Part shown: piece by piece, positions 5,346-43,400 of the stretch | Position numbering within the stretch: position 1 is the stretch's first letter | How the letters are laid out: each line of letters begins with the position of its first letter | Source of the DNA: Cephalotus follicularis | Lineage: Eukaryota; Streptophyta; Magnoliopsida; Oxalidales; Cephalotaceae | Reading direction: 5' to 3' | Assembly (NCBI GenBank): GCA_001972305.1 | Contig: BDDD01000170.1 | Coordinates: 388,044 to 452,043, forward strand | DNA length: 64,000 nucleotides | Program-made: the position numbers and the translations under genes | The notes under the pieces: generated by a model | The model's database searches: none | Told to the model about the DNA's origin: nothing | Seen by the model: only the letters and a program-made list of their open reading frames with translations

Positions 5346-5349
5346 TGTC

Positions 5350-8849: not shown

Positions 8850-11800
8850 CTTCCTAAGTGAAAAACATACGAACCTTTGCTCTTGGAAGGCCAAATGACC
8901 TTGATATGTACCTAAGGGTAAATGTTTGAGTTGAGGAATGGTCAAATCTCCATCCTACGTGCCAATCATGAGGCTCTTGGCTTATGGGAGGTCAAATACC
9001 CTTATTATTTGCCTTGGTAAAAGTTTGACTTAAGTAATGCTTAAATTTCCTTCCTAAGTACCAGCTTCCAGAAGGCTAAATGACCTTCTTATGTGCCAAG
9101 GGTGAAGTGTTTGACTGAATGAAGGCTTAAATTGACTTTCTAGACACCAAAGTTGAGTCCTTTGGTCTCTAGAAGGCCAAACCACTTATATGTGCCACGA
9201 TTTAAGTTTTTGACTGAACGAAGGCACATACTTCCTTCCTAAGTGCAAAACATAGGGGCCTTGGCTCCTAGAAGGCCAAATGACTGTCATATGTGCTAAG
9301 GGTGAAGTGTTTGAGTTAATGAATAGTCAAATTACCATCCTAAGTGCCAAACATGAGGCTCTTGGCGTCTGGGAGGCGAAATGGCCTTCTTATGTGCCCT
9401 GGTAAAGAGTTTGACTAAAGAAAAGCTTAAATTACCTTCCTAAGTACCAAAAATGATGTCATGGCTTCCAGACGGCCAAATGACCTTCTTATGTGCCATG
9501 GTTTAAGTGTTTGTCTCAACGCGGGAACATATTACCATCCTAAGTGCAAAACATAAGGACTTTGGCTCCTTGAACGCAAACGACCATCATATGTGCCAAG
9601 GGTGAAGTTTTTGAGTTAGCGAATGCTCAAATTTCCATCATAAGTGACAAACATGAGGCTCTTAGCTTCTGTGAGGCCAAATTCCCTTCTTATGTTCCTC
9701 GATAAAGAGTCTGACTTAAGAAATTCTGAAATTGCCTTCCTAAGTGCAGAAAATGAGGCCATGGCTTCCGAAAGGCTAAATGACATTCATTTGTGCGGAC
9801 GGTGAAGTGTTTGATCGAATGAAAGCTTAAATTGACTTTCTAGACACCAAAGATGAGTCCTTTGGTCTCTAGCAGGCCAAATCACTTATATGTGCCACGA
9901 TTTAAGTATATGACTTAACAAAGGCACATATTTCCTTCCTAAGAGAAAAACATAAGCCCCTTGGCTCCTGGAAGGCCAAATGAGTTTCATGTGTGCCAAT
10001 GGTGAAGTGTTTGAGTTAAGAAATTGTCAAATTGCCATCCTAAGTACCAAACATGAGGATCTTGGCTTCTGGGAGACTAAAGGCCCTTCTTATGTGCCTT
10101 GGCAAAGAGTTTGACAGAAGAAATGCCTAAATTACCTTCCTAAGTCCTAAAAATAAGGCCATGGCTTCCTGAAGGCTAAATGACCTTCTTATGTGCCAAG
10201 GGTGAAGTGTTTGACTGAATGAAGGCTTAAATTGACATTCTAGACACCAAAGACGAGTCCTTTGGTCTCTAGCAGGTCAAATTTCTAATATGTGCCAAGG
10301 TTTCTGTGTTTGACTTAACAAAGGCACATATTTCCTTCCTAAGTGTAAAACATAAGGACCTTGGTTCCTGTCAGGCCAAGTGACTTTCATATGTGCCAAG
10401 AGTAAAGTGTTTGAGTTATGGAATTTTCAAATTGCCATGCTAAGTGCCAAACATGAGGCTCTTGGCTTTCGGGAGGGCAAATGCCCTTTTTATGTGCCTT
10501 CGTAAAAAGTTTGACTTAAGAAATGCTTAAATTGACTTTCTCAGCACAAAAAATGAGTCCATGACTTATAGAAGGCTAAATGACCTTCTTGTGGACGAAG
10601 GGTGAAGTGTTTGACTGAATGAAGGCTTAAATTGACTTTCTAGACACCAAGGATGAGTCCTTTGATCTCCAGCAGGCAAAATCACTTATATGTGCCACGG
10701 TTTAAGTGTTTTACTTAAATAAAGCACATATTTCTATCATAAGTGTAAAACATAAGGATCTTGGCTCTTTGAAGGCCAAATGACTTTCATATGTGCCAAG
10801 GGTGAAGTGTTTGAGTTAAGGAATGGTCAAATTTCCATTCTAAGTGCTAAACATGAGGTTCTTGGCTTCCGGGAGGTCCAATGCCCTTCTTATGTGCATT
10901 TGTAAGGAGTTTGACATAAGAACTACTTAAATTTCCTTCCTAAGTGCCATAAATGGGTCATGGCTTCCAAAAGGCTAAATGACCTTCTTATGTGCCAAGG
11001 GTGAAATGTTTGACCGAATGAAGTCTTCAATTGACTTTCTAGACACTCGAGATGACTCCTTTGGTATCTAACAGTCCAAATCACTTATATGTGTCATGGT
11101 TTAAGTGTTTGAGTGAACGAAGGCATATATATCCTTCACAAGACCAAAATATAAGGACCTTGACCCCTCGAAGGCCAAATGACTTTCATATGTGCCAAGT
11201 ATGATGTGTTTGCATTAACGAATGGTCAAATTGCCATCCTAAGTGCCAAACATAAGGGACTTGGCTTTCGGGAGGCCAAATGCCCTTCTTATGTGCCTTG
11301 GTAAAGAGTTAAGAAATGCTTAAATTGCCTTCCTAAGTGCCAAAAATGAGGTCGTGGCTTCTATAAGGCTAAATGACCTTCTTATGTGCCAAGGGTGAAG
11401 TGTTTGACTGAATGAAGGCTTAAATTGACTTTTTGGGCACCAAAGATGAGTGCTTTGGTCTCTTGTAGGCCAAATCACTTATATCTACCATGGTTTAACG
11501 AAGGCACATATTTCCTTCATAAGTGCTAAAACATAAGGACCTTGGTTCTTGGAAGGCCAAATGACCTTCATATGTGCCAAAGATTAATAGTTTGAATTAA
11601 GGAATGGTCAAATTGCCATCCTAAGTGTGAAACATGAGGCTCTTAGCTTCCGGGAGGCCAAATTCCCTTCTTATGTGCTTTTGTAAGGTGAGAGACTTAA
11701 GAAATGTTTAAATTACCTTCCTAAGTGCCAAAAATAAGATAATGGCTTCCACAATGCTAAATGACCTTCTTATATGTCAATGGTGAAGTGTTTGACCGGA

Positions 11801-14800
11801 TGATGGCTTAAATTGACTTTCTAGATACCAAAGATGAGTCCTATAGTCTCTAGAAGGCTAAATCACTTATATGTGTCACGGTTTAAGTGTTTGACTTAAC
11901 GCGGCACATATTACCTTCCTAAGTGCACTACATAAGAACATTGGCTCCTTGAAGGACAAATGACCTTCATATGTGCCATGGGTGAAGTGTTTGAGTTAAG
12001 AAATGGTCAAATTGTCATCCTAAGTGCCAAACATTCAGCTCTTAGCTTTTGGGAGGACAAATGCCCTTTCTATGTGCCTTGGTTAAGAGTTTGACTTAAG
12101 AAATGCTTAAATTGCCTTTCTAACTGCCAAAAATGAGGTCATGCCTTCAGGAGGGCTAAATGACCTTCTTATGTGCAAATGGTGAAGTGTTTGACTAAAT
12201 GAAGGATTAAATTCACTTTCTAGACACCAAAGATGAGTCATTTGGTCTGTAGTAGGCCAAATCACTTATATGTGCCACGTAAGTGTTTGACTTAACGAAA
12301 GCACATATTTCCTTCATAAGGGGAAAACATAAGGACCTTGGTTCTTGGAAGGCCAAGATACTTTCATATGTGCTAAGGGTGAAGTCTTTGAGTTAAGGAA
12401 TGCTCAAATTACCATCCTAAGTGCCAAACATGAGGCTCTTCGCTTTCGAGAGGCCAAATGCCCTTCTTATGTGCCTTGGTAAAGAATTTGACTTAAGAAA
12501 TGCTTAAATTGTCTTCGTGAGTGGCAAAAAAGAGGCCTTGGCTTCTGGAAGGCTAAATGTCTTTCTTATGTACCAAGGGTGAAGTGTTTGTCTGAATGAA
12601 GGCTTAAATTTACTTTCTAGACACCAAAGATGAGTCCTTTGGTCCCTAGCAGGCCAAATCACATATATGTGCCACAGTTTAAGTTTTTGACTTAACGAAG
12701 GACCATATTTCCTTCCTAAGGGAGAAAAATAAGGGCCTTGGCTCCTCGAAGGCCAAATTACTTTCATATGTGCCAAATGAATTTCATATGCACCAAGGGT
12801 GAAGTGTTTGAGTTAAGGAATGGTCAAATTGACATCCTAAGTACTAGACATGAGGCTTTTGACTTTCGGGAGGCCAAATGCCCTTCTTATATGCCTTGGT
12901 AAAGAGTTTGACTTAAGAAATGCTTAAATCTCCTTCCTGAGTGCCAAAATAAGGCCATGGATTCTACAAGGATAAATGACCCCATTATGTGCCAAGGGTG
13001 AAGTGTTTGCTTGAATAAAGGCTTAAATTGACTTTCTAGACACCAAAGATTAGTGCTTTGGTCTCTAGTAGGCCAAATCACTTATATGTGTCAAGGTTTA
13101 AGTGTTTGACTTAATGTCGTCACATATTTTCTTCCTAAGTGAAAAACATAAGGACCTTGGCTCCTGGAAGGCCAATTGACTTTCATCTGTGCCAAGGGTG
13201 AAGTGTTTGAGTTAAGAAATGGTCAAATTACCATCCTAAGTGCCAAACATGAGGCTCTTGGCTTCTAGGAGGCCAAATGCCCTTCTTTTGTGCCTTAGTA
13301 AAGAGTTTGACTTAAGAACTTCTTTAATTGCCTTCCTAAGTGTCAAAAATCAGGTCACGCCTTCCAGAAGGCTGAATGAACTTCTTATGTGTAAAGGGTG
13401 AACTGTTTGACTGAATGAAGGCTTAAATTAACTTTCTTGACACCAAAGATGAGTCATTTGGTGTCTAGCAGGCCAAATCACTTATATGTGCCACGGTTTA
13501 AGTGTTTGGCTTAACGAAGGTCACATGTTACCTTGCTAAGTGCAAAACATAAGGACCATTGCTCCTGGAAGGCCAAATGACCTTCATATGTGCCAAATCT
13601 GAAGGGTTTGAGTTAAGGAATAGTAAAATTGCCATCCTAAGTGCCAAACATGAGGCTCTTGCCTTGATAATGAGTTTTGACTGTAGAAATTCTTCAATTG
13701 CCTTCCTAAGTGCAAAATATGAGGTCATGGCTTCCAGAAGGCTAAATGAGATTCTTATGTGCCAATGGGGAAGTGTTTGACTGAATGAAGGCTTAAATTG
13801 ACTTTCTACTCACCAAAGATGAGTCCTATGGTCTCTAGTAGGCCTAATCACTTATATGTGCCACAGTTTAAGGGTTCAACTTAACGAAGGCAAATATTTT
13901 CTTCCTAAGTGCAAAACATGAGGACTTTTGCTCCTGGAAGGCCAAATGACTTTCATATATGCTAAGGGTGAATTGTTTGGGTTAAGGAATTATCAAAATG
14001 CCATACTAAGTGCTAAACATGAGGCTCTTCGCTTCCGGGAGGCCAAATTCCCTTTTTATGTTCCTTGGTAAAGAGTTTGGCTTAAGAAATGCATAAATTA
14101 CCTTCCTAAGTGCCAAAATTGAGGTTATGGCTTCAAGAAGGCTAAATGACCTTCTTATGTGCCAATGGTGGAATGATTGACTGGATGAAGGCTTAAATTG
14201 ACTTTCTCGACACGAAACATTAGTCATTTGGCCTCTAGTCGGTAAAATCACTTATATGTGCCACAATTTAAGTATTTGACTAAATGCAGGCACGTATTAC
14301 CTTCTTAAATGCAAAACATAAGGACCTTTGCTCCTAGAAGGCCAAATGACCTCCATATGTGCCAAGGGTAAAGTTTTTTAGTTAATGAATTCTGAAATTG
14401 CCATCCTAAATGCCAAACATGAGGCTCTTGGCTTCTGGGAGGCCAAATGCATTTCTTATGTGCCTTGGTAAATAGTATGACTTAAGAAATGCTTAAATTG
14501 CCATCCTAAGTGCCAAAAATGAGTTCATGGCTTCTAGAATGCTAAATGTTCTTCTTATGTGTGAAGGGTGAAGTGTTTGACTGAATGAAGTCATAAATTG
14601 ACTTTCTAGACACCAAAGATGAGTACTTTGGTCTCTAGCACGCCAAATAACTTATATGTATCTCGGTTTAAGTGTTTGAGTTAACGAAGGCACATATATC
14701 TATCCTAAGTGCTAAAACATAAGGACCTTGGCTCCTGGAAGGCCAATTGACTTTCATATGTGCGAAAGGGTGAAGTGTTTGAGTTAAGGAATGGTCAAAT

Positions 14801-17302
14801 TTCCATCCTAAGTGCAGGATATGAGGCTCTTTGCTTCTGAGAAGCCAAATGCCCTTCTTATGTGCCTAGGTAAAGAGTATGACTAAAGAAATGCTTAAAT
14901 TACCTTCCTAATTGCCAAAAGTTAGGCGTTGGCTTCTAGAAGGCTAAATGACCTTCTTATGTGCCAATGGTGAAGTGTTTAACTGAATCGAGGCTTAAAT
15001 TGACTTTCAAGACACCAAACATGAGTCCTTTGGCCTCTAGCAGGCCAAATAACTTATATGTGCACTGTTTAAGTGTTTCACTTAATGAAGGCACATATTT
15101 CCTTCCTAAGTGCAAAATATAAGGAACTTGGTTCCTGGAAGGCTAAGTGACTTTCATATGTTCCAAGGGTGAAGTGTTTGAGTTAAGGAATGGTCAAATT
15201 GCCATCCTAAGTGCCAAAAATGAGGCTCTCGGTTTTCGAGAGGCCAAATGCCCTTCTTATGTGCCTTGGTAAAGAGTTTGGCTTAAGAAATGCTTTAATT
15301 ACCTTCCTATGTGCCAAAAATGAGGCATTGGCTTCTACAAGGCTAAATGACCTTCTTATGTGCCAATGGTGAAGTGTTTGACTGAATGAAGGCTTAAATT
15401 GACTTTCTAGACACCAAAGATGGGTCATTTGGTCTCTAGCAGGCCAAATCACTTATATGTACCACGGTTTAAGTGTTTGAGTCAACGAAGGCACATATTT
15501 CCTTCCTAAGTGCTAAAACACAAGGACCTTTGCTCCTGGAAAGCCAATTGACTTCCTTATATGCCAAGGGTGAAGTGTTTGAGTTAAGGAATCATCAAAT
15601 TGCCATCCTAAGTGCCAAACATGAGGCTCATAGTTTCCGAGAGGCCAAATGCCCTTCTTATGTGCCTTGGTAAGGAGTTTGACTTAAGAAATGCTTAAAT
15701 TGCCTTCCTAATTGCCAAAAATTTTGCCTTGGCTTCTAGAAGGCTAAATGACCTTTTATGTGCAAATGGTGAAGTGTTTTACTGAATGAAGGCTTAATTT
15801 GACTTTGTAGACACCAAAGATGAGTCATTTGGTCTCTAGCAGGAGAAATCACGTATATGTGCCATGGTTTAAGTGTTTGACTTAACGAAGGCACATATCG
15901 ACTTCCTAAGTGTAAAACATAAGGACCTTGGCTCTTGGAAGGCCAAATGACCTCCATATGTTGCAAGGGTGAAGTTTTTCAGTTAAGGAATGCACAAATT
16001 GCCATCCTAAATGCCAAACATGAGGCTCTTTGCTTCCGGGAGGTCAAATGCCATTCTTATGTGCCTTGGTATAGATTTTGACTTAAGAAATGCTTAAATT
16101 GCCTTCCTAATTGCCAAAAATTAGGCTTGGTTTCTAGAAGGCTAAATGACTTTCTTATGTGCAAATAGTGAAGTGTTTCACTGAATGAAGGCTTAAAAGC
16201 ACTTTCTAGACACCAAACATGATTCATTTGGTCTCTAGTAGGCGAAATCACTTATATGTGCCACAGTTTAAGGGTTTGACTTAACGAAGGCACATATTAC
16301 CTTGCTAAGTGCAAAACATAAGGACCTTCTCCTAGAAGGCCAAATGACTATCAGATGTGCCAAGGGTGAAGTGTTTGAGTTAAGGAATGGTCAAATTGCC
16401 ATCCTAAATTTCAAACATGAGGCTCTTGGCTTTTGGGAAACCATATGCCCCTCTTATGTGCCTTGGTAAAGATTTTACTTAAGAAATGCTTAAACTACCT
16501 TCGTAAGTGCCAAAACTGAGGTCATAGCTTCCAGAAGGCTAGATGACCTTCTTATGTGCCAATGGTGAAGTGTTTGACTGAATCAAGGCTTCAATTGACT
16601 TTCTAGACACCGAAATGAGTCCTCTGGCCTTTAATAGGCCAACATCACTTATATGTGCCACAGTTTATATGTTTGGCAGAATGAAGGCACATATTACCTT
16701 CCTAAGTGCAAAACATAAGGACCCTAGCTCGTCGAAGACTAAATGACCTTCATATGCACCAAGGGTGTAGTGTTTCAGTTAAGCAATGGTCAAATTACCA
16801 TCCTAGGTGCCAAACATGAGGCTATTGGCTTTTGGGAGGCGAAATGCCCTTCTTATGTCCCTTGGTAAAGAGTTTGACTTAAGACATGATTAAATTGCCT
16901 TCCTAAGTCCCAAAAATGATGCCATGGCTTCCATAAAGCTAAATGACCTTCTGATGTGGCAATGGTGAAGTGTTTGACTAAATAAAGGCTTAAATTGACT
17001 TTCTAGACACCAAACATTAGTCCTTTGGCCTCTAGCAGGCCAAATCACTTATAAGTGCCATGATTTAAGTTTTTGACTTAACGAATGCTCATCTTTCCTT
17101 CCTAAGTACAAAACATAAGGACCTTGGCTCCTAGAAGGTCAAATGAATTTCATATGAGCCAAGGGTGAAATGTTTGAGTTAAGGAATGGTCAAATTGCCA
17201 TCCTAAATTTCAAACATAAGGCTTTTGGCTTATGGGAGGCCACATGCCCCTCTTATGTGCCTTGATAAAGAGTTTGACATAAGAAATGCTTAAATTGCCT
17301 TC
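8850..17302 (+). repeat. Satellite block 1: 400-bp repeat of four ~100-bp subunits, ~21 copies
   Basis: Head-to-tail array. Each 400-bp unit is A (cacatatTaccttcctaag..., ~101 bp), B (gtcaaattgccatcctaag..., ~100), C (cttaaattgccttcctaag..., ~100) and D (cttaaattgactttctagac..., ~99). The four share a common plan, with an AGG-CCAAATG-like centre and a GTGTTTGA-like end, so the 400-bp unit arose from a 100-bp ancestor. Copies differ by point changes and small indels. The long minus-strand frames in it are by-products of the repeat. I see no gene. It ends abruptly in a C subunit where E2 begins. Confidence 0.95.
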
Positions 17303-23412: not shown

Positions 23413-23487
23413 CCTATGAGGTATCATAGGCATGTCCTTTGGCACGGAGGATATGACACCTATCGTGGCGGTGTGATCGGTCTACGA
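23413..23487 (+). other. Paired hairpin module (H1, H2) in E2 LTR
   Basis: H1: CCTATGA-GGTA-TCATAGG (23413-23430), perfect 7-bp arms. A linker with GGCACGGAGG and ATGACAC follows. H2: TCGTGG (23463-23468), 13-nt loop CGGTGTGATCGGT, CTACGA (23482-23487), a 6-bp stem with one G-U pair that forms only in plus-sense RNA. Both stems differ from their E3 counterparts by paired, compensating changes. Confidence 0.7.
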
Positions 23488-23491
23488 CGTC
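23487..23491 (+). repeat. Left target-site duplication of E3 (ACGTC)
   Basis: ACGTC directly before the E3 left LTR, repeated at 33714-33718 directly after the right LTR. This confirms integration into the E2 LTR. Confidence 0.95.
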
Positions 23492-24628
23492 GGTAATGCC
23501 CTGCCTATTTGTACGTAATTTTCTTACGGGTTTTAATTGTTTCGTTTATGTATTTGTCCGTTGTATGTTGGGTTTACGTTTTGGGCTTACTGATACCGGC
23601 CTAAATTCTTGGGTTTGTTAGTATGGGCTTTTGGACTTTGGTAAATTAGTTATATTAGTATTATTATTAATTCCCTAAATCAATTTTAAAAGCATTTTTA
23701 AAATACCACATTTTAAATTTAATATTTCCTTTTCTTTATTTTCCTTTTCTTTTATCTTTCCTTTTTATTTCCTCTCACATTCTCTCTCTGCCTCTCACGA
23801 CATCTCTCCCTCTCTCAACACTCTCTCCCGAATCTTCTTCTTCTTCATAATTGTTACACGGCAATAATCCCATCCTTCCATAACAATATGATTGTGTCCC
23901 ATTATTTCCTTATTCCTTCCCCAATCTCCTCTTCTTTTCTGTTTTGGATTAGTCTGCTATATATATGGGTGTCAAGCCTTCGTTTTGTCACATCTCCTTG
24001 CTGCCGAATCTGCCATTGGAAGAGTCACTGTGTTCCTTGTGTTTTGCTTCATTAATCAGGTTAGTCTTCATGGTTTCTATGTAAGAATCGTTTTTGCAAA
24101 GTTAGCATTATTGGCAGGCTTGAATTTTTATGTCCTTCTCTCGTTTTTCCTTTGTGATCAGCCACTGTGTCATTCAATTGGTATTCCTACAACCGTTCTT
24201 GACATCCAACCGGTTGGTTTTCTATATGGTTATACCCTAGTGATTTGTTTTTGGATCATTGTCATGTTTAAGTTGTCATTGAAGGAGTAGTTTTGGTTTC
24301 CATTCTTCTTTGGTTTCTGTCAAGTGGACAAGTGTTTAGAGATTACTGTAGACGTCTAGGATGTGTAAATAATCTGTTGTTAATGCATATGATCATTATA
24401 ATTGGACAGAATTAAGATTTTGAATTGGCATGCCATGGTTTAAAATCCTTACCACATGGGAATAATTTTCTGTCAAAGGGATTCTGTCAAATTCAGTGAT
24501 ATAATGTGGTTGTACATGTCACATAAAGTTGTTCTTAATGTTGGTAAACGCCTGGTATTGAAGGAGTTGAGTTTGGGTAGCAAAATTGCATCAAATCTGC
24601 CATATTTCTGGTTTCTGTCGAGCAAGGC

Positions 24629-24844
24629 AGTCGGCTGCCCTGTGAATGCAGTCGACTGGTTGTCCTGTTTATTCGGCTGGATACCCTGTTTCAGTCGACT
24701 GTCTACAAATCCAGGTTGTGTAGTCGGCTCGATACCCTGTTTCAGTCGACTGTCTGCAAATCCAGGTTGTGTCGTCGACTGGTTCTGTTATGCAGTTGAC
24801 TGCCACCCATTGTTAGTCGACTGGGTCCTCCAAACAGTCGACTG
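24629..24844 (+). repeat. CAGTCGACTG palindrome cluster in E3 left LTR
   Basis: About nine copies of the 10-bp palindrome CAGTCGACTG or one- to two-base variants, with perfect copies at 24649-24658, 24692-24701, 24743-24752 and 24835-24844. Part of the cluster is a 51-bp near-tandem duplication (about 24680-24730 and 24731-24780), but the outer copies sit in unrelated sequence, so the palindrome itself is the conserved unit. Confidence 0.85.
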
Positions 24845-25033
24845 GTTTGTCCTGTTAATTTCTGTTTTCGTCCGCTTATTTTTCCGATGATCCGGGTTTA
24901 ATTATGAACATCTTTGTGATTCTATTTTATGTTCAAAATGGATTTTAGACCCTTATATGAATGTTTTTGTATTGAATAGATTTGTGTACTACGTGGGACA
25001 TTTAAATTATTCGTAAGCTTAGTTGTGATCGCA

Positions 25034-25042
25034 CAAGGTACG
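25034..25042 (+). promoter_or_regulatory. Candidate leader splice donor, CAAG|GTACG
   Basis: Fits the AG|GTA core of plant donors and lies in a conserved context (GTACGGATTCTTCGTTC). Equivalent AG|GTA sites with partly conserved surroundings occur in E2 (cut after 22953), the solo LTRs (after 55817 plus; 46204 and 49990 minus), the last LTR (after 63606) and, more weakly, E1 (after 66 and 7054). Splicing is inferred, not shown. Confidence 0.4.
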
Positions 25043-25420
25043 GATTCTTCGTTCCTTGGTTCATTCTTATTGTTTTGAATTCTGTTGAGATTTAAATACA
25101 GATTCTGGTTTTGATGTTACTCGGTTTTTGAGCATGCTTACTTTGGTTTATGAACTCCGTATGTTTAGGTTTTTGAAAATAAAGTCCTTTGATATTTTGT
25201 GAAGTAAATATCCTGACTTTCCGAAATCAGTTATAATGTATTTAAGAAATGATATGTAATCATCTAATTATTGTGAAATTAGATTAGTGGATTTTACTAA
25301 ATATGAAAGTATGTGAAACTTCGTTTGAATACGAATTTTGGTAATGGTTTGGGAAACGTTTTTAATGATTTAGTGAAATCATATTTTTGAAAATGATGAA
25401 ATACTGAGCTATTATATCCA

Positions 25421-25499
25421 CCTATGGGGGTACCATAGGCATGCTGTGGGCCTGGCACGGGGGCATGACACTTTCCGTAACGGTGTGATTCGTTTACGG
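25421..25499 (+). other. Paired hairpin module (H1, H2) in E3 left LTR
   Basis: H1: CCTATGG-GGGTA-CCATAGG (25421-25439). H2: CCGTAA (25475-25480), 13-nt loop CGGTGTGATTCGT, TTACGG (25494-25499). Arms are perfect. Compared with E2's LTR, the closing pair of H1 changes from A-U to G-C, and in H2 two pairs change on both sides (U-A to C-G, G-C to A-U) while G-U becomes A-U. Confidence 0.75.
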
Positions 25500-25861
25500 C
25501 GTCTCTCAGGGATATCCGTAGATCGGATTTGGGATAGAGGCGTATAGATCGATCTTAGTTATATGTTATTGGGATATGTTTGGGATATAGGGATTGTATG
25601 TGTAGTGCCGTATACTGTAATTCCATTGGCAATGTGGGTGTCGCGAAACTCCTTGCTACTATATGATATGTTTTGGTTTTGGTGCTCAGTTTATTGATCC
25701 TATGTTTTGGAAAGGTATATTTTATGGTTATATGTTTTGCCATGGGCATTTATAAAACATGTTGAAATTATTTTATTGCTTAAGATTTTAGTTTTTAATG
25801 TACTTTTAGAAATCTTCCTGCTTTAAAAATATTGTTTACTGTTTTATGTTCTATATCCGTA

Positions 25862-25903
25862 CTGAGGTTTGCTCAGCCGCGTTTTTGTTTCCATGCGGCA
25901 GGT
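25862..25903 (+). other. H3/H4 block with acceptor-like GCAG|GT, E3 left LTR
   Basis: H3: CTGAG-GTTTG-CTCAG (25862-25876). H4: CCGC (25877-25880) with GCGG (25895-25898) around a T-rich loop. The block ends CATGCGGCAG|GTTACC at 25901/25902, which looks like a plant splice acceptor after a T-rich tract. It is strongly conserved in E2 (34101-34142), the plus-strand solo LTR (about 56711-56754) and the first minus-strand solo LTR (44868-44910). Confidence 0.55.
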
Positions 25904-26205
25904 TACCAGGAGCAAAGGGGCAATGTGTGATGAGAGTGACTCCCATCCTTATCCGAGGATTGTCTAGTAGCTGATCCTTTATGTTATGTGGTCGTAGTGG
26001 AACCAGTTACTTAAACATTATGTTATTTCAGTTTATGACATTTGGATTATGTTTAAGTTTCCGATATTATCAGTTTTATATGTTATGCATATGTTTTAAA
26101 CCACCACGATTTTAATAAAGATGAACTATTTAATATGATTTGATCTGTTTAGTTTTGGTATTATGCACTATGGCGACTCCCACGTCTCGGGGGTGTTACA
26201 GTTTA

Positions 26206-26217
26206 TGGTATCAGAGA
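26206..26217 (+). other. E3 primer binding site (initiator tRNA-Met)
   Basis: TGGTATCAGAGA five bases after the left LTR, identical to E1's site. Confidence 0.92.
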
Positions 26218-26374
26218 ATAGGTTTTGTTTCCTTAGGAGACCTGACTAGGTTTGACCTGTGAGCTTGGGTAGACTTGGGTTAGGATTGTTCTGTTATGAT
26301 TCGGTCTTTCTGATATGTTTTCTGTTTTGATTTTGTGTTTCGGTTTGATATCATGTGTTCGGTTTCTTTCGTAG

Positions 26375-27500
26375 ATGGTATGCACAAGAAACGTTCCTCA
26401 GAGAACTGCACCAGCTGGAGCTCGAAACGAAGCTAGAAACGAGCCTTCTGTGGAAGAATTGGTTCGACAGGCAGTTGCTCAGGAAGTGAGTCAAGTTATG
26501 CGACAGCAACAGAACCGGGAACAAGTTGTTGAAGAGAATGCTCCGGCAAAGGTTAAAGCGGGTGTAGAAGCTGGAAACAGGCATGGTACACCTACTCATG
26601 TTTGGCTTGAGCGGTTTCAGAAACAGAGGCCGCAGTCTTTTAGTTCGGCTGTGACACCAGTGGAAGCTGAACACTGGATAGCACATATGGAGAAGATCTT
26701 CAATGTTCTGAGATGTGATGATCAGCAGAAAGTAAGGTTGGCGACTTACAAATTGGAAGGGGATGCCCAGAAATGGTGGAATACTCTGAATTCGGCCAAG
26801 GGTGATGGTTATGCTGATGCTCTGTCATGGTTTGAGTTTCGGGATGTCTTCTATCAGCAGTATTTCCCCACTGCTGATAAGGAGGCCTACGCTAGAGAGT
26901 TCGTAAAGACCATGCAGAAAGATGGAGAGATAGTTTCGGAGTTCTTGGCCCGTTTCACTAGATTGGCTGGGTTTGCTGGATCCGCGGCTGGGTCAGCATC
27001 CGAGCAAGATGAAAAATTCAAGTGGAAGCTGCATTACCAGTTTCGGGGAAAGCTGATTAACTCTAGGTTTTCGGATGTAGCTGAGGTTGCCAATGCCGCG
27101 AAGAATATTGAATTAGAGAGATTGGATTTTCAGGCAGCACGTCTGGAAGGAGATAAGAAGCGGAATAGGAGTGAACAAGGTTCTGGAGAGCAGAACAAGG
27201 GTCAAGGCAGTTCATGGAACAGGGGCAGAGGAGGTAAGCAGCATAAGAAAGATCACAAGCAGAATAGAGATGGTAATCAACAGCGTCAGCAAGGAAATGA
27301 CCAGAAATATGCACAAGGAGCTGATGGGGGTAACCCCGATGTTCAGATTGCTAAGTGTGACGCTTGTGGTAGGTATCATCCAGTCGGTACCTATTATAAA
27401 GTCAGTGGGGCTTGTTTCGTATGTGGGCAGATGGGACACTTCGCGAAGGATTGTCAGGATCCTCGTGCTAAGGAAAGGAAGGGTAATGGTGCAAATGCTG
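26375..27500 (+). pseudogene. gag: E3 gag (capsid/nucleocapsid)
   Basis: Reads from ATG at 26375 for about 375 residues. An N-terminal Gln/Glu-rich segment is followed by the retrotransposon gag domain (about residues 85-230, with WIAHMEKIFNVLRCDD and AQKWWNTL), a Gly/Gln/Lys-rich linker, a partly altered first knuckle, and one clear CCHC knuckle CFVCGQMGHFAKDC at 27413-27454. This is the usual size and layout of Tekay/Del Gag. In this clade gag and pol normally form a single frame; here the continuity is broken. Confidence 0.88.
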
Positions 27501-27599
27501 GGTAGCGCAATGTTGGAGGCCGAGTCTTCGCAATTACGGCTCATCAGGCAACTAATGCTCCAGGTACGGTTTCGGGTTTTATTTCTGTTGGTAACCGTA

Positions 27600-31005: not shown

Positions 31006-32140
31006 TGTAATACCCTGCCTATCTGTACGTAATTTTCTTACGGGTTTTAATTGTTTCGTTTATGTATTTGTCCGTTGTATGTTGGGTTTACGTTTTGGGC
31101 TGACTGATACCGGCCTAAATTCTTGGGTTTGTTAGTATGGGCTTTTGGACTTTGGTAAATTAGTTATATTAGTATTATTATTAATTCCCTAAATCAATTT
31201 TAAAAGCATTTTTAAAATACCACATTTTAAATTTAATATTTCCTTTTCTTTATTTTCCTTTTCTTTTATCTTTCCTTTTTATTTCCTCTCACATTCTCTC
31301 TCTCCCTCTCACGACATCTCTCCCTCTCTCAACACTCTCTCCCGAATCTTCTTCTTCTTCATAATTGTTACACGGCAATAATCCCATCCTTCCATAACAA
31401 TATGATTGTGTCCCATTATTTCCTTATTCCTTCCCCAAACTCCTCTTCTTTTCTGTTTTGGATTAGTATGCTATATATATGGGTATCAAGCCTTCGTTTT
31501 GACACATCTCCTTGCTGCCGAATCTGCCATTGGAAGAGTCACTATGTTCCTTGTGTTTTGCTTCATTAATCAGGTTAGTCTTCATGGTTTCTATGTAAGA
31601 TTCGTTTTTGCAAAGTTAGCATTATTGGCAGGCTTGAATTTTTATGTCCTTCTCTCGTTTTTCCTTTGTGATCAGCCACTGTGTCATTCAATTGGTATTC
31701 CTACAACCGTTCTTGACATCCAACAGGTTGGTTTTCTATATGGTTATACCCTAGTGATTTGTTTTTGGATCATTGTCATGTTTAAGTTGTCATTGAAGGA
31801 GTAGTTTTGGTTTCCATTCTTCTTTGGTTTCTGTCAAATGGACAAGTGTTTAGAGATAACTGTAGACGTCTAGGATGTGTAAATAATCTGTTGTTAATGC
31901 ATATGATCATTATAATTGGACAGAATTAAAATTTTGAATTGGCATGCCATGGTTTAAAATCCTTACCACATGGGAATAATTTTCTGTCAAAGGGATTCTG
32001 TCAAATTCAGTGATATAATGTGGTTTTACATGTCACATAAAGTTGTTCTTAATGTTGGTAAACGCCTGGTATTGAAGGAGTTGAGTTTGGGTAGCAAAAT
32101 TGCATCAAACTGCCATATTTCTGGTTTCTGTCGAGCAAGG

Positions 32141-32357
32141 CAGTCAGCTGCCCTGTGAATGCAGTCGACTGGTTGTCCTGTTTAGTCGGATGGATACCCT
32201 GTTTCAGTCGACTGTCTACAAATCCAGGTTGTGTAGCCGGTTGGATACCCTGTTTCAGTCGACTGTCTGCAAATCCAGGTTGTGTAGTCGACTGGTTCTG
32301 TTATGCAGTGGACTACCACCCATTGTTAGTCGACTGGATCCTCCAAACAGTCGACTA
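32141..32357 (+). repeat. CAGTCGACTG palindrome cluster in E3 right LTR
   Basis: Right-LTR copy of 24629-24844 with the same order of modules and about a dozen base differences, several falling inside palindromes. Confidence 0.83.
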
Positions 32358-32933
32358 GTTTGTCCTGTTAATTTCTGTTTTCGTCCGTTTATTTTTTCGA
32401 TGATCCGGGTTTAATTATGAACATCTTTGTGATGCTGTTTTATGTTCAAAAAGGATTTTAGACCCTTATATGAATGTTTTTGTATTGAATAGATTTGTGT
32501 ACTACGTGGGACCTTTAAATTATTCGTAAGCTTATTTGTGATCGCACAAGGTACGAATTCTTCGTTCCTTGGTACATTCTTATTGTTTTGAATTCCGTTG
32601 AGATTTAAATACAGATTCTGGTTTTGATGTTACTCGGTTTATGAGTATGCTTACTTTGGTTTATGAACTCCGTATGTTTAGGTTTTTGAAAATAAAATCC
32701 TTTGATATTTTGTGAAGTAAATATCCTGACTTTCCGAAATCAGTTATAATGTATTTACGAAATGATATGTAATCATCTAATTATTGTGAAATTAGATGAG
32801 TGGATTTTACTAAATATGAAAGTATGTGAAACTTTGTTTGAATACGAATTTTGGTAATGGTTTGGGAAACGTTTTTAATGATTTAATGAAATCATATTTT
32901 TGAAAATGATGAAATACTGAGCTATTATATCCA

Positions 32934-33012
32934 CCTATGGGGGTACCATAGGCATGCTGTGGGCCTGGCACGGGGGCATGACACTTTCCGTAACGGTGTG
33001 ATTCGTTTACAG
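32934..33012 (+). other. Paired hairpin module (H1, H2) in E3 right LTR
   Basis: H1 CCTATGG-GGGTA-CCATAGG (32934-32952) is intact. H2 (32988-33012) has the same 13-nt loop, but one base of its 3' arm differs from the left LTR. Confidence 0.7.
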
Positions 33013-33713
33013 CGTCTCTTAGGGATATCCGTAGATCGGATTTGGGATAGAGGCGTATAGATCGATCTTAGTTATATGTTATTGGGATATGTTCGGGATA
33101 TGGGGATTGTATGTGTAGTGCCGTATACTGCAATTCCATTGGCAATGTGGGTGTCGCGAAACTCCTTGCTACTATATGATATGTTTTGGTTTTGGTGCTC
33201 AGTTTATTGATCCTATGTTTTGGAAAGGTATATTTTATGGTTATATGTTTTGCCATGGGCATTTATAAAACATGTTGAAATTATTTTATTGCTTAAGATT
33301 TCAGTTTTTAATGTACTTTTAGAAATCTTCCTGCTTTAAAAATATTGTTTACTGTTTTATGTTCTATATCCATACTGAGGTTTGCTCAGCCGCGTTTTTG
33401 TTTCCATGCGGCAGGTTACCAGGAGCAAAGGGGCAATGTGTGATGAGAGTGACTCCCATCCTTATGTGAGGATTGTCTAGTAGCTGATCCTTTATGTTAT
33501 GTGGTCGTAGTGGAACCAGTTACTTAAACATTATGTTATTTCAGTTTATGACATTTGGATTATGTTTAAGTTTCTGATATTATCAGTTTTATATGTTATG
33601 CATATGTTTTAAACCACCACGATTTTAATAAAGATGAACTATTTAATATGATATGATCTGTTTAGTTTTGGTATTATGCACTGTGGCAACTCCCACGTCT
33701 CGGGGGTGTTACA

Positions 33714-33718
33714 ACGTC
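33714..33718 (+). repeat. Right target-site duplication of E3 (ACGTC)
   Basis: Matches 23487-23491. The E2 LTR resumes after it. Confidence 0.95.
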
Positions 33719-34466: not shown

Positions 34467-37400
34467 CCTCGGCTCTTGGAAGGCATAATGATCTTCATAT
34501 GTGCCAAGGGTGAAATATTTGAGTTAAGAAATGGTCAAATTTCCCTCCTATGAGTCAACCATGAGGCAATTGGCTTTTGGGAGGCCAAATGCGCTTCATA
34601 TGTGACTTGGTAAGGAGTTAAAAAATGCTTAAATTTCCTTCCTAAGTGCCAAAAATGAAGCCATGGCTTCTAGAAGTCTAAATGACCTTCTTATGTGCCA
34701 AGGGTGAAGTGTTTGACTGAATGAAGGCTTAGATTGACTTCTTGGGTACAAAAGATGAGTCCTTTGGTCTCTAGCAGTCCAAATCACTTATATGTACCAC
34801 GGTTTAAGTGTTTGACTTAACGAAGGCACATATTTCCTTCCTTAGTACTAAAACATATGGACCTTGGCTCCTAGAAGGGTAAATGACTTTCATATGTGCC
34901 AAGGGTGAAGTGTTTGATTGAAGAATGGTCAAATTGCCATCCTAAGTGCCAAACATGAGGCTCTTGGCTTCCAGGAGGCCAAATGCCCTTCTTATGAGCC
35001 TTGGAAAAGACTATGACTTAAGAAATGCTTAAATTGACTTCTTAAATGCCAAAATGAGGCCATGGCTTGTAGAAGCCTAATTAACCCTCTTATGTGCCAA
35101 GGGTGAAGTGTTTGATTGAATGAAGGCTTAAATTGACTCTCTAGACACAAAAGATAAGTCCTATGGTCTCTAGCCGGTGAATAACTTATATGTGCCACGG
35201 TTTAATTGTTTGACTTAACGCAGTCACATATTACCTTCATAAGGGCAAATCATAAGGACCTTGGCTCCTGGAAGGCCAAATGACCTTCATATTGCCACTG
35301 GTGTTGTGTTTGAGTTAGGAAATGGTCAAATTTCCATCCTAAGTGCTAAACATGAGGCTCTTATCTTTTAGGAGGCCAAATGCCCTTCTTATGGGCCTTG
35401 GTAAAGAGTTTAACTTATGAAATGCTTAAATTACCTTCCCAAGTGCCAAAAATGAGGCCATGGCTTCCATAAGCCTAAATGACCTTCTTATGTGCCAATG
35501 GTGAAGTGTTTGACTAAATAAAGGCTTAAATTGACTTTACATACACTAAACATGAGTTCTTTGGCCTCTAGCAGGCCAAATCACTTATATGTGCCACGGT
35601 TTGAGAGTGTGACTTAACGCAGGCACATATTACCATCCTAAGTCAAAAACATAAGGACCTTGGCTCTTGGAAGGCCAAATGACCCTCATATGTGCCAAGG
35701 GTGAAGTGTTCTAGTTAAGGAATGGTAAAACTGTCATCCTAAGTGCCAAACATGAGCCTCTTGGCTTTTGGGAGGCCAAATGCCATTCTTATGTGCCTTG
35801 GTAAAGAGTTTGACTTAAGAAATGCTTAAATTTCCTTCCCAAGTGCTAAGAATGAGGTCATGGCTTCCAGAATGATAAATGACCTTCTTATGTGCCAATG
35901 GTGAAGTGTTGGACTGAATGAAGCCGTAAATTGACTTTCTAGACACCGAACATGAGTCCTTTGGCCTCTAACAGGCGGAATCACTTATATATACCACGGT
36001 TTAAGTGTTTGACTTAATGAAGGCACATATTACCTTCATAAGTGTAAAACATAAGGAGCTTGGCTCTTGGAAGGCCAAATGACCTTCATATGTCTAAACC
36101 CTAAATTGTTTGAGTTAAGGAATTGTAAAATTTCCAACCTAAGTGCCAAACATGAGGCTCTTGGCTTCGGGAGGCCAAATGTCCTTCTTATGTGCCTTGA
36201 TAAAGAGTTTGACTTAAGAAAGGCTTAAATTGTCTTCATAAGTGCCAAAAATGAGGCCATGGCTTCCAGAAGGCTAAATAACTTTCTTATGTGCCAATGG
36301 TGAAGTGTTTGACTGAATAAAGGCTTAAATTGACTTTATATACACCAAACATAAGTCCTTTGGCCTCTAGTAGGCCACATCACTTATATGTGCCACGGTT
36401 TTAGTGTTTGACTTAACGCAGGCACATATTACCTTCCTAAGTGTAAAACATAAGGACCTTGGCTCTTGGAAGGCATAATGACCTTCATATGTGCCAAGGG
36501 TGAAATGTTTGATTTAAGAAATGGTCAAATTGCCATCCTATGAGCCAACCATGAGGCTATTGGCTTTCGGGATGCCAAATGCCCTTCTTATGTGCCTTGG
36601 TAAAGAGTTAAGAAATGCTTAAATTTCCTTCCTAAGTGCCAAAAATGAGGCCATGGCTTCTGGAAGGCTAAATGACCTTCTTATGTGCCAAGGGTGAAGT
36701 GTCTGACTGAATGAAGGCTTAAATTGACTTCTTGAACACCAAAGATGAGTCCTTTGGTCTCTAGTAGGACAAATCACTTATATGTACGACGGTTTAAGTG
36801 TTTGACTTAACGAAGGCACATCTTCCCTTTCTAAGTTCTCAAAACATAAGGACCTTGGCTCCTGGAAGGCCAAATGACCATCATATGTGCGAACGGTGAA
36901 GTGTTTGAGTTGAGGAATGGTCAAATTACCATCCTAAGTGCCAAACATGAGGCTCTTGGCTTACGGGAGGCCAAATTCCCTTCTTATGAGCCTTGGAAAA
37001 GAGTGTGACTTAAGAAATTTTTAAATTGACTTCCTAAATGCCAAAATGAGGCCATGGCTTCTAGAAGGCTAATTGACCTTCTTATGTGCAAAGAGTGAAC
37101 TGTTTGACTGAATGAAGGCTTAAATTGACTCTCTAGACACAAAAGATAAGTCATATGGTCTCTAGCAAGTGAAATAACTTATATGTGCCACAGTTTAAGT
37201 GTTTGACTTAACGCAGACACATATTACCTTCGTAAGTGCAAATCATAAGGACCTTCGCTCTTGGAAGGCCAAACGACCTTCATATTGCCACTGGTGATGT
37301 GTTTGAATTAAGAAATTGTCAAATTTCCATCTTAAGTGACAAACATGAAGCTCTTGTCTTTTGGGAGGCCAATTGCCATTCTTATGGGTCTTGGTAAAGA

Positions 37401-40400
37401 GCTTGACTCAGGAAATGCTTAAATTACCTTCCTAAGTGCCAAAAATGAGGCCATGGCTTCCATAAGGCTATATAACCTTCTTATGTGCCAATGGTGAAGT
37501 GTTTGACTGAATAAAGGTTGAAATTGACTTTACATACACCAAACATCAGTCCTTTGGCCCCTAGCAGGCGAAATCACTTATATGTGCCACGGTTTAAGAG
37601 TTTGACTTAACGCATGCACATATTACCATCCTAAGTGCAAAACATAAGTACCTTGGCTCCTGGAAGGCCAAATGACCCTCATATGTGCCAAGGGTGAAGT
37701 GTTATAGTGAAGGAATTGTAAAATTGTCATCCTAAGTGCCAAACATGAGGCACTTGGCTTCCGGGAGGCCAAATGTCATTCTTATGTGCCTTGGTGAAGA
37801 GTTTGACCTGAGAAATGCTTAAATTGCCTTTCCAAGTGCTAAAAATGAGGTCATGGCTTCCAAAATGATAAATGGCCTTCTTATGTCCCACAGGTGAAGT
37901 GTTGGACTGAATGATGCCTTAAATTGACTTTCTAGACACAAAACATGAGTCCTTTGGCCCCTAGTAGGCGGAATCACTTATATGTGCCACGGTTTAAGTT
38001 TTTCACTTAATGAATTCACATATTTCCTTTCTAAGTAAAAAACATAAGGACCTTGGCTCCATTAAGGCCAAATGAATTTCATATGTGCTAAGGGTCTAGT
38101 GTTTGAGTGAAGGAATAGTCAAATTGCCATCCTAAGTTCCAAACATGATGCTCTTGGCTTCCGGGAGGCCAAATTCCCTTCTTATGTGCCTTGGCAAAGA
38201 GTTCGACTTATGCAATGCTTAAATTGCCTTCATAAGTGCCAACAAGAAGGTCATGGTTTCAAGAAGGCTAAATGACCTTCTTATGTGACAATGGTGAAGT
38301 ATTTGACTGAATGAAGGCTTCAATTGACTTTCTAGAGACCAAACATGAGTCCTTTAAACTTTAGCAGGCCAAATCACTTATATGTGCCACGGTTTAAGTG
38401 TTTGACTTAACACAGACATATATTACCTTCCTTAGTGCAAAACATAAGGTCCTTCGCTCGTAGAAGGCCAAATAACCTTCATATGTGCCAAGGGTGAAGT
38501 GTTTAAGTTAAGAAAAGGTCAAATTTCCATCCTAAGTGCCAAACATACGACTCTTGGATTTTGGGAGGCCAAATGCTCTTCTTATGTGCCTTGGTAAAGA
38601 GATTACTTAATAAATTCTTAAATTGCCTTCCTAAGTGCAAAAAATGAGGCCATGGATTCCATAAGGCTAAATGACCTTCTTATGTGCCAATTGTGAAGTG
38701 TTTGACTGAATAAAGGCTTAAATTGACTTTATATACCCCAAACATGAGTCCTTTGGCCTCTCGTAAGCCACATCACTTATATGTGTCCCAGTTTAAGTGT
38801 TTGACTTAACGCATGCACATATTACCTTCCTAAGAGCAAAACATAAGGACCTTGGCTTTTGGAAGGCATAATGATCTTCATATGTGCCAATGGTGAAATG
38901 TTTGAGTTAATAAATGGTCAAATTGCCATCCTATGAGCCAACCATGAGGCTATTGGCTTTTGAGAGGCCAAATGCCCTTCTTATGTGCCCTGGTAAAGAG
39001 TTAAGAAATGTTTTAATTTCCTTCCTAAGTGCCAAAAATGAGGGCATGGCTTCTAGAAGGCTAAATGACCTTTTGTGCAAAGGGTGAAGTGTGTGATTGA
39101 ATGAAGGCTTAAATTGTGTTCTTGCGCACCAAAGATGAGTCCTTTGGTCTCTAGCAGGCCAAATCACTTATATGTACCACGGTTTAAGTGTTTGACTTAA
39201 CGAAGGCACATATTTCCTTCGTAAGTGCTAAAACATAAGGCCCTTGGCTCCGGGAAAGCGAAATGACCTTCATATGTGGCAAGGGTGAAGTGTTTGAGTT
39301 GAAGAATGGTCAAATTGCCATCCTAAGTGCCAAGCATGAGGCTCTCGGCTTGCAGGAGCCCAAATGCCCTTCTTATGAGCCTTGGAAAATAGTGTGACTT
39401 AAGAAATGCTTAAATTGACTTCCTAAATGCCAAAATGAGGCCATTTCTTCTCGAAGGCTAATTGACCTTCTTATGTGCCAGGGTGAAGTGTTTGACTGAA
39501 TGAAGGCTTAAATTGACTCTCTAGACACAAAAGATAAGTCCTATGGTCTCTAGCAGGTGAAATAACTTATAAGTGTCACGGTTTAAGTGTTTGACTTAAC
39601 GCAGGCACATATCATCTTCCTAAGTGCAAATCATAAGGACCTTGGCTCCTGGTAGGCCAAACGAACATCATATTTCCACTGGTGATGTGTTTAAGATAAG
39701 AAATGGTCAAATTTCCATCCTAAGTGCCAAACATGAGGCTCTTGTCTTTTGGGAGGCCAAATGCCCTTCTTATGGCCCTTGGTAAAGAGTTTGACTTAAG
39801 AAATGCTTAAATTACCTTCCTAAGTGCCATAAATGAGGTCATGCCTTCCATAAGGCTAAATGACCTTCTTATGGGCCGATGGTGAAGTGTTTTACTGAAT
39901 AAAGGCCTAAAGTGACTTTACATACACCAAACATGAGTCCTTTGGCCTCTAGCAGGCCAAATCACTTATATGTGCCATGGTTTAAGAGTTTGACTTAACG
40001 CAGGCACATATTACCATCCTAAGTGCAAAACATAAGGACCTTCGCTCCTGGATGGCCAAATGACCCTCATATGTGCCAAGGGTGAAGTGTTCTAGTTAAG
40101 GAATGGAGAAATCGTCATCCTAAGTGCCAACCATGAGGCTCTTGGCTTCTGGGAGGCCAAATGCCGTTCTTATGTGCCTTGGTGAAGAGTTTGACTTAAG
40201 AAATGCTTAAATTGCCTTTGCAAGTGCTAAAAATGAGGTAACGACTTCCAGAATGATAAATTACCTTCTTATGTGCCAGTGGTGAATTGTTGGATTGAAT
40301 GAAGCCTTAAATTGACTTTCTAGACACCAAACATGAGTCCTTTGGCCTCTAGCAGGCCGAATCACTTATATGTACCACGGTTTAAGTGTTTGACATAATG

Positions 40401-43400
40401 AAGGCACATATTACCTTCATAAGTGCAAAACATAAGGACCTTGGCTCCTAGAAGGCCAAATGACTTTCATATGTCTAAAGTGTAAAGTGTTTGAGTTAAG
40501 GAATGGTCAAATTTCCAACCTAAGTGCCAAACATGAGGCTCTTGGCTTCCGGGAGGCTAGATGCCCTTCTTATGTGCCTTGATAAAGACTTTGACTTAAG
40601 AAAGGCTTAAATTGTCTTCATACGTTCCAAAAATGAGGTCATGGCTTCCAGTAGGCTAAATGACCTTCTTATGTGCCAATGGTGAAGTGTTTGACTGAAT
40701 AAAGGCTTAAAGTGACTTTACATACACCAAACATGAGTCCCTTGGCCTCTAGCAGGCCAAATCACTTATATGTGCAATCGTTTAAGTGTTTGACTTAACA
40801 CATGCACATATTACCTTCCTAAGTGCAAAACATAAGGACATTGGGTTCTAGAAGGCCAACTGACCTTCATATGTGCCAATGGTGAAGTTTTTGAGTTAAT
40901 GAATGGTGAAATTGCCATCCTAAGTGTCAAACATGAGACTCTTGATTCCTGAGAGGCCAAAGGCCTTTCTTACGTGTTGTGGTAAAGAGTTTGACTTACG
41001 AAATGCTTAAATTGCCTCCCTATGGGCCAAAATGTTGCAATGGCTTCCAAAATACTAATTGACCTTCTTATGTGCCAAGGGTAAAGTGTTTGACTGAATG
41101 AAAGCTTAAATTGACTCTCTAGACACCAAAAATGAGTCATTTGGTCTCTAGCAGGGCAAATCACTTATATGTGCCACGGTTTAAGTGTTTGACATAACGC
41201 AGGCACATTTTACCTTCCAAAGTAAAAAACATAAGGACGTTGGCTCCTGGAACGCCAAATGACCTTTATATGTCCCAAGGGTGAAGTGTTTGAGTTAAGA
41301 AATGGTCAAATTACCATCCTAAGTGACAAATGTGAGCCTCTTGGCTTTTGGGAGGCAAATGCCCTTCTTATGTGCCTTGGTAAAGAGTTTGACATAAGAA
41401 ATTCTTAAATTACCTTCCTTATTGCCAAAAATGAGTCCATGGCTTCCAGAAGGCTAAATGACCTTCATATTTCCCAATGGTGAAGTGTTTGACTGAGTGA
41501 AAGCTTAAATTGTCTTTCTAGACACCAAACATGAGTCCTTTGGCCTCTAGCAGGAGAAATCACTTATATGTGCCATGGTTTACGTGTTGACTTAACGAAA
41601 GCACATATTACCGTTTTAAGTGCAAAACATAAGGAACTTGGCTGCTGGAAGGCCAAATATCTACATATGAGTTTGAGTTAAGGAAAGGTCAAATTACCAT
41701 CCTAAGTGTCAAACATGAGGCTCTTGGCTTTCGAGAGGACAAATGCACTTCTTATGTTCCTTGGTAAAGAGTTTGAGTTAAGAAATTCTTAAATTGCCTT
41801 CCTAAGTGCCACAAATGAGGCCATTGCTTCCAGAAGGCTAAATGACCTTCTTATGTGCCAATGGTGAAGTGTTTGACTGAATGAAGGCTTAAATTGACTT
41901 CCTAGACACCAAACATGAGTCCTTTGGCCTCTGGCAGCCCAAATCACTTATATGTGCCACGATTTAAGTGTTTGACTTCACACAGTCACATATTACCTTG
42001 CTAAGTGTAAAACCTAAGACCTTAACTCCTAGAAGGCCAAATGACCTTCATATGTGCCAAGGGTGAAGCGTTTGGGTTAAAGAATGATTAAATTGCCATC
42101 CTAAGTGCAAAACATGAGGCTCTTGGCTTTCGGGAGGCGAAATGCCCTTCTTATGTGCCTTGGTAAAGAGTTTCACTAAATAAATGCTTAAATTGCCTTC
42201 CAAAGTGCTAAAAATGAGGCCTTGATTTCCAGTAGGCTAAATGACCTTCTTATCTGTCAAATGGTGAAGTGTTTGACTAAATGATGGCTTAAATTGACTT
42301 TCTAGACACCAAAGATGAGTCAGTTGGCCTCTAGGAGGCCAAATCAGTTATATGTGCCACGGTTTAAGTGTTTGACATATCGAAGGCACATATTACTTTG
42401 CTAAGTGCAAAACATAAGGACCTTGGCTCCTGGAAGGCCAAATGATTTTCATATGTGCCGAGGGTGAAATGTTTGAGTTAAGGAATAGACAAATTACCAT
42501 CCTAAGTGCCAAACATGAAGCTCGTGGATTCCAAAAGGCCAAATACCCTTCTTATGTGCCTTGGTAAAGAGATTGACTTAAGAAATGCTTCTAATTGCCA
42601 AAAATGAGGCCATTGCCTCCAGAAGGCTAAATGACCATCGTAGTGCCAACGGTGAATTGTTTGATTCAATGATGACTTAAATTGACTCTATAGACACCAA
42701 AGATGAGTCCAATGGTCTCTAGCAGGACATGTCACTTATATGCACCACGGTTTAAGTGTTTGACTTAATGAAGTCCAATATTTCCTTCCTAAGTCCAAAA
42801 CATATGGAGCTTGGCTCCTGGAAGCCAAATGACTTTCATATGTGCCAAGGCTGAAGGGTTTGAGTTAAGGAATGGCCAAATTGCCATCCTAAGTTCCAAA
42901 CATGAGGCTCCCTGCTTCCGGGAGGCCAAATTCCCTTTCTATGCGCCTTGGTAAAGAGTTTGACTTAAGAAATGCTTAAATTTCCTTTCTAAGTGCCAAA
43001 AATGCGGTCATGGCTTTCAAAAGGCTAAATGGCCTTCTTATGTGTCAATGGTGACGTGTCTGATAGAATGAAGGCTTAAATTGACTTTATAGACACCAAG
43101 CATGATTCCTTTGACCTTTAAAAGACCAAATCACTTATATGTGCCATGGTTTAAGTGTGTGACTTATCACAGGCACATATTCCCTTCATAAGTGCAAAAC
43201 GTAAGGACCTTGGATCCTAGAAGGCCAAATGACCAACATATGTGCCAAGGGTGAAGTGTTTGAGTTAAGGAACGGTAGACTTGCCATCCTACGTGCTGAA
43301 CATGAGTCTCTTGGATTCTAGGAGGCCAAATTCCCTTCTTATGTGCCTTGGCAAAGAGTTTGACTTAATAAATGCTCAAATTGCCTTCGTAAGTGCCAAA

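Follow-up and report, generated by a model that had tools for sequence, protein, structure and literature searches.

A conserved LTR hairpin of a Cephalotus follicularis chromovirus lies in a predicted leader intron and may mark unspliced genomic RNA

Introduction

Splicing is known in a number of plant LTR retrotransposons, namely Ogre, EVADE, BARE1, CRR, Bagy2 env and the sunflower elements Tyran and Varan (PMC12786077, PMC6317226, PMC3735527, PMC7730604; accessible parts of each source). According to the same parts, splicing yields distinct RNA pools in these elements, as is proposed for the element discussed below. The introns of Ogre, BARE1 and CRR are described there as lying between or within coding regions, whereas those proposed here lie in the untranslated leader, within and beyond the LTR, and would extend to the gag ATG. 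How one transcript can act both as message and as genome has yet to be settled for plant LTR retrotransposons. In sunflower, Tekay is the largest family and is missing from the expressed set (PMC7730604, accessible part); this silence may be the reason why such introns would go unseen. Among the top-ranked titles and abstract openings of our literature search, no description was found of leader introns in plant chromovirus LTRs or of the hairpin presented here.

The window analysed is a stretch of 64,000 nucleotides from Cephalotus follicularis (contig BDDD01000170.1, positions 388,044 to 452,043, forward strand). A preliminary description of this sequence had reported a 6-bp stem, here called H2, in four LTR families and had placed it in the leader of the genomic RNA. 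We propose that H2 is part of a structured element that marks unspliced genomic RNA, most likely for packaging by Gag, and assign this reading a rough probability of one half.

Element E3 and the H2 hairpin

Element E3 (Table 1) has the features of a Ty3/gypsy chromovirus: a gag with a CCHC motif, a chromodomain near the end of pol, an LTR pair and a PBS-like site. Pfam matches were obtained for PF03732, PF00098 and PF00385. From the long LTRs and the chromodomain we take it to be a member of the Tekay/Del clade. E3 sits within an LTR of element E2 and is flanked by the target duplication ACGTC (23487-23491 and 33714-33718), which adjoins the H2 stem of E2 on its 3' side. An insertion hotspot at H2 was considered and dropped, since this is one case only; a weak palindrome preference of insertion has been reported (PMC6911290, accessible part).

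The TATA-like box of E3 is located 1.5 kb upstream of H2, and transcription is assumed to start at about 23990. AATAAA, the LTR end and the sequence which we take to be the primer-binding site (PBS) all lie downstream of H2. An exact PBS pattern is present in 16 copies, and 11 of these have AATAAA 79-98 nt upstream of it. A similar TATA-like box is found close to the E3 position in loci L114, L115, L116 and L118; in other loci such boxes are scattered, and most of these sequences end before the position of the E3 box. Tandem satellite arrays with a repeat length of about 400 bp occupy much of the space that separates the retrotransposons of the window.

The H2 hairpin is real. When the sequence was re-read, the four hairpins of the preliminary description were all found in place, with the arms as claimed and GTGTGAT in every loop, and the 3' LTR of E3 holds a fifth. 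With up to three mismatches, GGTGTGATNNNNYTACGRCG matches five times in the window against 0.55 expected, and none of 100 shuffles reached five. The genome searched comprises 1.58 Gb, and all genome-wide match counts are lower bounds. The H2 motif with one mismatch permitted gave at least 17,679 matches (44 in the reversed control), a further H2 pattern at least 7,922 (14 in the control), and a pattern bounded by ATGACAC and CGTCTCT, with neither stem nor loop specified, at least 13,460 copies (413 in the reversed control). A pattern scan of IMG/VR for the hairpin motif gave no match. H2 belongs to a row of hairpins in the order H0, H1, H3, H2, H4, and an alternative helix, P1, is mutually exclusive with H2 and H3.

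Table 1. Positions of features in the window. A slash within a splice motif marks the boundary between exon and intron.
Feature	Position	Strand	Remarks
E3 5' LTR	23492-26200	+	Self-comparison (BLAST start 23493); pair at 31007-33713, 97.9% identical; length 2.7 kb
TATA-like box	23958-23966	+	TATATATAT; from sequence
Leader intron 1 (apparent)	24060-24161	+	CAG/GTTAGT ... GATCAG/CC; exactly absent in L114, L115/L116, L118
Leader exon 2	24162-24212	+	Fused to exon 1 in L114, L115/L116, L118
Leader intron 2 (apparent)	24213-24979	+	Exactly absent in L118 only; holds CAGTCGACTG-type palindrome repeats
Leader exon 3	24980-25037	+	ATG-poor across 26 loci
Predicted leader intron 3	25038-26374	+	AAG/GTACGG ... 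TTTCGTAG/ATG; contains H0-H4, core B, LTR end, PBS
H0	25365-25382	+	ATGATTT and AAATCAT in E3; TTGTTTT and AAAACAA in others
H1	25421-25439	+	CCTATGG and CCATAGG
H3	25440-25467	+	CATGC and GCATG in E3
Alternative helix P1	25441-25502	+	25441-25450 with 25493-25502
H2 of E3	25475-25499	+	CCGTAA 25475-25480; loop 25481-25493 with GTGTGAT; TTACGG 25494-25499
H4	25514-25528	+	ATCCG and CGGAT; alignment less sure (both letters in 47-72 of 82 copies)
Core B	25854-25934	+	Conserved TATCCGTACTGAGGTTTGCTCAGCCGCG...GGCAGGTTA, then second GTGTGATGAG; 63 of 82 copies aligned
Primer-binding site (presumed)	26206-26216	+	TGGTATCAGAG; pattern match
gag ORF with CCHC zinc knuckle	26375-27505	+	Pfam match
H2 of E2	23463-23487	+	Arms TCGTGG and CTACGA
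H2 of E3 3' LTR	32988-33012	+	Arms CCGTAA and TTACAG; fifth copy, absent from the preliminary description
H2 of LTR C	45488-45512	-	Arms CCGTAG and CTACGG
H2 of LTR B	56251-56275	+	Arms CCGTGG and CTACGG
Satellite arrays	about 8850-17300, 34470-44490, 47600-48560, 51110-54610, 57030-62175

Pairing and covariation

Covariation was analysed in a set of 82 non-identical copies, 77 of them drawn from 108 loci and five from the window; the first extraction of loci had given 106 matches, 77 of them unique. The sample was drawn from the first contigs of the match lists and anchored on ATGACAC and CGTC, the letters of which are invariant in this set because they served as anchors. As a null, columns were evolved independently on a FastTree tree, each with its own number of changes.

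In the H2 stem 444 of 491 cells are paired (null mean 352, maximum 436; p=0.003), and six branches carry compensatory double changes (null mean 0.75, maximum 4; p=0.003). The covariation score is 1.79 (null 0.75, maximum 2.01; p=0.01). These values are from 300 simulations, and a run with 200 agrees. Shifting the 3' arm by 1-3 columns leaves 19-58% of cells paired instead of 90%. H2 shows stem covariation that exceeds a phylogeny-aware null, the mark of conserved RNA secondary structure, which bears out the covariation proposed for this stem in the preliminary description; an all-pairs scan, with a null that preserves column rates and tree, nevertheless returned none of 149,878 pairs at E<=0.05.

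The pattern of changes is narrower than first described. At pairs 2-6, 390 of 409 cells hold a standard base pair, but two-sided changes in bulk are confined to pair 6 (G-C in 53 copies, A-U in 22). For pair 5 the alternation of A-U (53) and G-U (22) holds, with G-C in a further five copies. The claimed exchange of U-A and C-G at pair 1 is rare, U-A occurring in two of the 82 copies; this pair is formed in 54 copies and broken in 28.

Among the neighbouring hairpins, pairing of H0, H1 and H3 lies above all 200 simulations in each case, as do the double changes and covariation of H4. Double changes of H1 (p=0.095) and H3 (p=0.065) did not exceed the null, nor did the covariation of H1 (p=0.27). 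Minimum-energy folds of the 82 copies contain H1 in 65, H3 in 21 and H2 in 15. In a sliding RNAalifold analysis of 14 E3-like copies several z-scores are meaningless, because the shuffled energies were zero. Core B was rejected as a hairpin structure, being conserved mostly as sequence with a consensus fold of -1.7 kcal/mol.

It was also considered whether P1 is the working helix and the signal of H2 a by-product of the common arms. P1 pairs in 683 of 741 cells (null mean 599, maximum 691; p=0.007) with a covariation p of 0.007, and a P1-like helix was present in four of eight single folds inspected. Position 25499, which breaks pair 1 of H2, often pairs in P1 (U-G in 36, U-A in 24 and C-G in 12 of 82 copies). 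However, P1 shows no compensatory double change, compared with the six of H2. Gaps occur at 25448-25450 in about 25 copies, and 25448-25495 reads A-C in four copies, whereas pair 5 of H2 is there G-C in five. A primary role of P1 is quite improbable, and H2 is retained as the helix of the proposed genomic RNA mark.

The preliminary description had taken the G-U pairs as pointing to RNA rather than to a DNA cruciform. This argument fails for H2, as its one-sided changes show no bias toward G-U (G-U : A-C is 4 : 6 on internal and 13 : 19 on terminal branches). For four helices pooled the ratio is 15 : 9 on internal (p=0.31) and 44 : 44 on terminal branches, which is not significant; H3 alone leans toward G-U. 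As the G-U test leaves the choice between RNA and DNA open for H2, the conserved block could be a DNA element, that is, a bipartite site or an LTR enhancer, with a palindrome for a dimeric factor. Sirevirus LTRs likewise contain conserved palindromes in repeated copies, which were interpreted as transcriptional elements; these motifs are located 5' of the TATA box and differ in sequence from those described here (PMC2829016, accessible part). A DNA element fits poorly with the 13-nt loop of H2, which is strongly conserved and non-palindromic, with a position 1.5 kb downstream of the E3 TATA-like box, and with the internal branches of H3, which change 8 : 0 toward G-U. We regard it as very unlikely and continue with an RNA element that marks the genomic transcript.

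Leader introns

In several families CAG/GTTWGT near the leader start is followed by about 100 nt with a T-rich CAG at the end, and then by a small exon with a second donor behind it. A first donor is also present in LTRs C and B and in loci L009 and L050, where no clear second exon can be recognised. At donor 1, CAG/GTNNGT occurs in 66 of the 100 matches listed, and the GT is kept in 69 of the 72 family-like rows among them. The donor-2 context gave 850 matches against one in the control, and by an uncounted estimate most of the 100 matches listed read AG/GT.

Exact removal at GT-AG sites is seen in genomic copies at three places, for introns 1 and 2 only. L114 (contig C1671) lacks precisely intron 1 and keeps the rest, including H1, H3 and H2. 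L115 and L116 (C2017) both lack intron 1; they lie 7.48 kb apart, with 98.6% identity across 1,197 nt, which would fit a pair of LTRs from a single insertion. In L118 both intron 1 and intron 2 are missing exactly, and H1, H3 and H2 are still present in L119, its continuation, so that H2 is retained in both processed copies read that far (L114 and L118/L119). The loss in L114 could result from a deletion between ATCAG repeats. L115/L116 share only CAG with the intron end of their relatives, and deletion is an unlikely source of the two exact losses in L118. Judged from genomic copies rather than from RNA, introns 1 and 2 appear to be removed by splicing.

Searches for spliced junctions differed in yield. 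Among 134 matches (10 in the control), five were examined, of which C1671, the two at C2017 and C4735 are real; C3367 (L117) was rejected as a processed copy since it proved unrelated on reading, and many of the remaining matches resemble ordinary intron-1 ends. Another search gave 34 matches (3 in the control), and none of the five examined (L109-L113) is a leader copy; a further genome-wide search gave no match. A search for the junction of exons 2 and 3 gave 476 matches (29 in the control), with C4735 as the one examined. A junction of this kind, with one mismatch, occurs at C166:900276 and C166:907068 (genome G000), 6.8 kb apart; this pair could represent another processed element or an ordinary acceptor.

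CAGTCGACTG-type palindromes repeat in leader intron 2 of E3 (24600-24850), in element D (63180-63400) and in L114. Element E1 (2035-6280) apparently represents another Ty3/gypsy lineage with its own gag; it has TTCTCTTATAG just 5' of TAATGG near the gag start, which may reflect a comparable mode of splicing.

Splicing of intron 3 to the gag ATG is inferred from sequence motifs. AG stands directly 5' of the gag ATG in 96 of the 100 matches listed of 1,557, with T at position -3 in 92. T at -3 is not the usual context of a start codon. Five of the 16 loci that extend past the PBS end too early, and YAG/ATG is present in nine of the remaining 11 (L021 and L025 are without it). The donor motif occurs in 37 of 82 copies, and two or more of these have it away from the homologous position. 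Core B, which holds a T-rich stretch and GGCAG/GTTA resembling a splice acceptor, could be the acceptor site rather than the gag ATG. Genome-wide searches for the junction of exon 3 and gag gave 24 matches (10 in the control) in one case and, in the other, 12 matches that each have three mismatches (1 in the control); no copy without intron 3 was recognised among the matches listed. No such copy is expected if fully spliced RNA lacks the PBS and so cannot be reverse transcribed, but the same outcome would be seen without any splicing.

The ATG content of the leader is consistent with this prediction. With the start taken as 23990, the unspliced E3 leader contains 70 ATGs in 2,385 nt and the predicted spliced leader none in 179 nt. 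The latter is modest evidence by itself, because 5.7% of spliced-leader shuffles are also ATG-free; for random leader pieces of the same length the proportion is 0.9%. Likewise, no ATG occurs in the spliced leader of L118 (202 nt) or in L115 and L116 (126 nt), and the predicted spliced leader of element D (about 62.5 kb), for which the start of exon 1 is arbitrary, has four in 248 nt. Exon 3, delimitable in 26 of the 82 copies, contains four ATGs in 1,280 nt, compared with 21.7 (upstream) and 38.0 (downstream) per kb in sampled flanks; as these copies are related, they do not count as independent, and in the E2 type exon 3 is very short and its assignment uncertain.

Discussion

The placement of H2 in leader RNA agrees with the anatomy of E3, but the hairpin, which begins 437 nt into predicted intron 3, would not be present in the leader of every RNA. 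Since it lies within the last predicted intron, H2 is expected in genomic RNA that has not been spliced and should be missing from the spliced message for gag. We propose that H0, H1, H3, H2 and H4 form a structured RNA element that is common to the 5' leaders of a large chromodomain-bearing group of Ty3/gypsy elements in this plant. Splicing of introns 1, 2 and 3 would join a short ATG-free leader to the gag start codon and thus produce the message for protein, whereas RNA that retains intron 3 would keep the hairpins, the PBS and the LTR end and could be reverse transcribed. Because such RNA retains both the hairpins and the PBS, the hairpins would label it as genomic. The most likely function of the fixed loop GGUGUGAU would be to bind the zinc knuckle of Gag, and the inferred role of this contact would be to select genomic RNA for packaging, as psi does in retroviruses.

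Alternatively, the element may govern the fate of intron 3 by means of a host protein, either blocking splicing or exporting the RNA like a constitutive transport element. The hairpins do lie inside predicted intron 3, and mutually exclusive folds, H2 and H3 on one side and P1 on the other, would suit a switch. Yet no known export element was matched in the window: a scan with Rfam 15 at gathering thresholds found no family, and one sub-threshold match was obtained at 25926-25976 (19.8 bits versus 50). For want of an Rfam match in the window, a ribozyme or other known RNA was likewise rejected. We consider control of intron fate by a host protein possible but doubtful, and prefer recognition of the genomic RNA by Gag. 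The two ideas meet in a two-state switch, where H3 and H2 would expose the GGUGUGAU loop to Gag while P1 would hide it and permit splicing of intron 3; this extension is unlikely. If true, such a switch would balance translation against replication within one element of an abundant plant repeat group.

If the proposal is correct, a leader with three introns and an RNA tag carried by an intron would make the question of message and genome directly testable, and annotators would gain a landmark for the leader and the R region in long LTRs.

Two further systems resemble the proposed mark. As in Cer1 of Caenorhabditis elegans, genomic RNA with its introns would have to be exported from the nucleus and meet Gag; Cer1 differs in that it uses a protein of its own, CERV (PMC10309623, accessible part). 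With the retroviral psi the element would share structured hairpins in a leader region that other messages lose by splicing. It differs from psi in that the spliced RNA would be the gag message itself, that the intron lies mostly inside the LTR, and that binding by Gag is putative.
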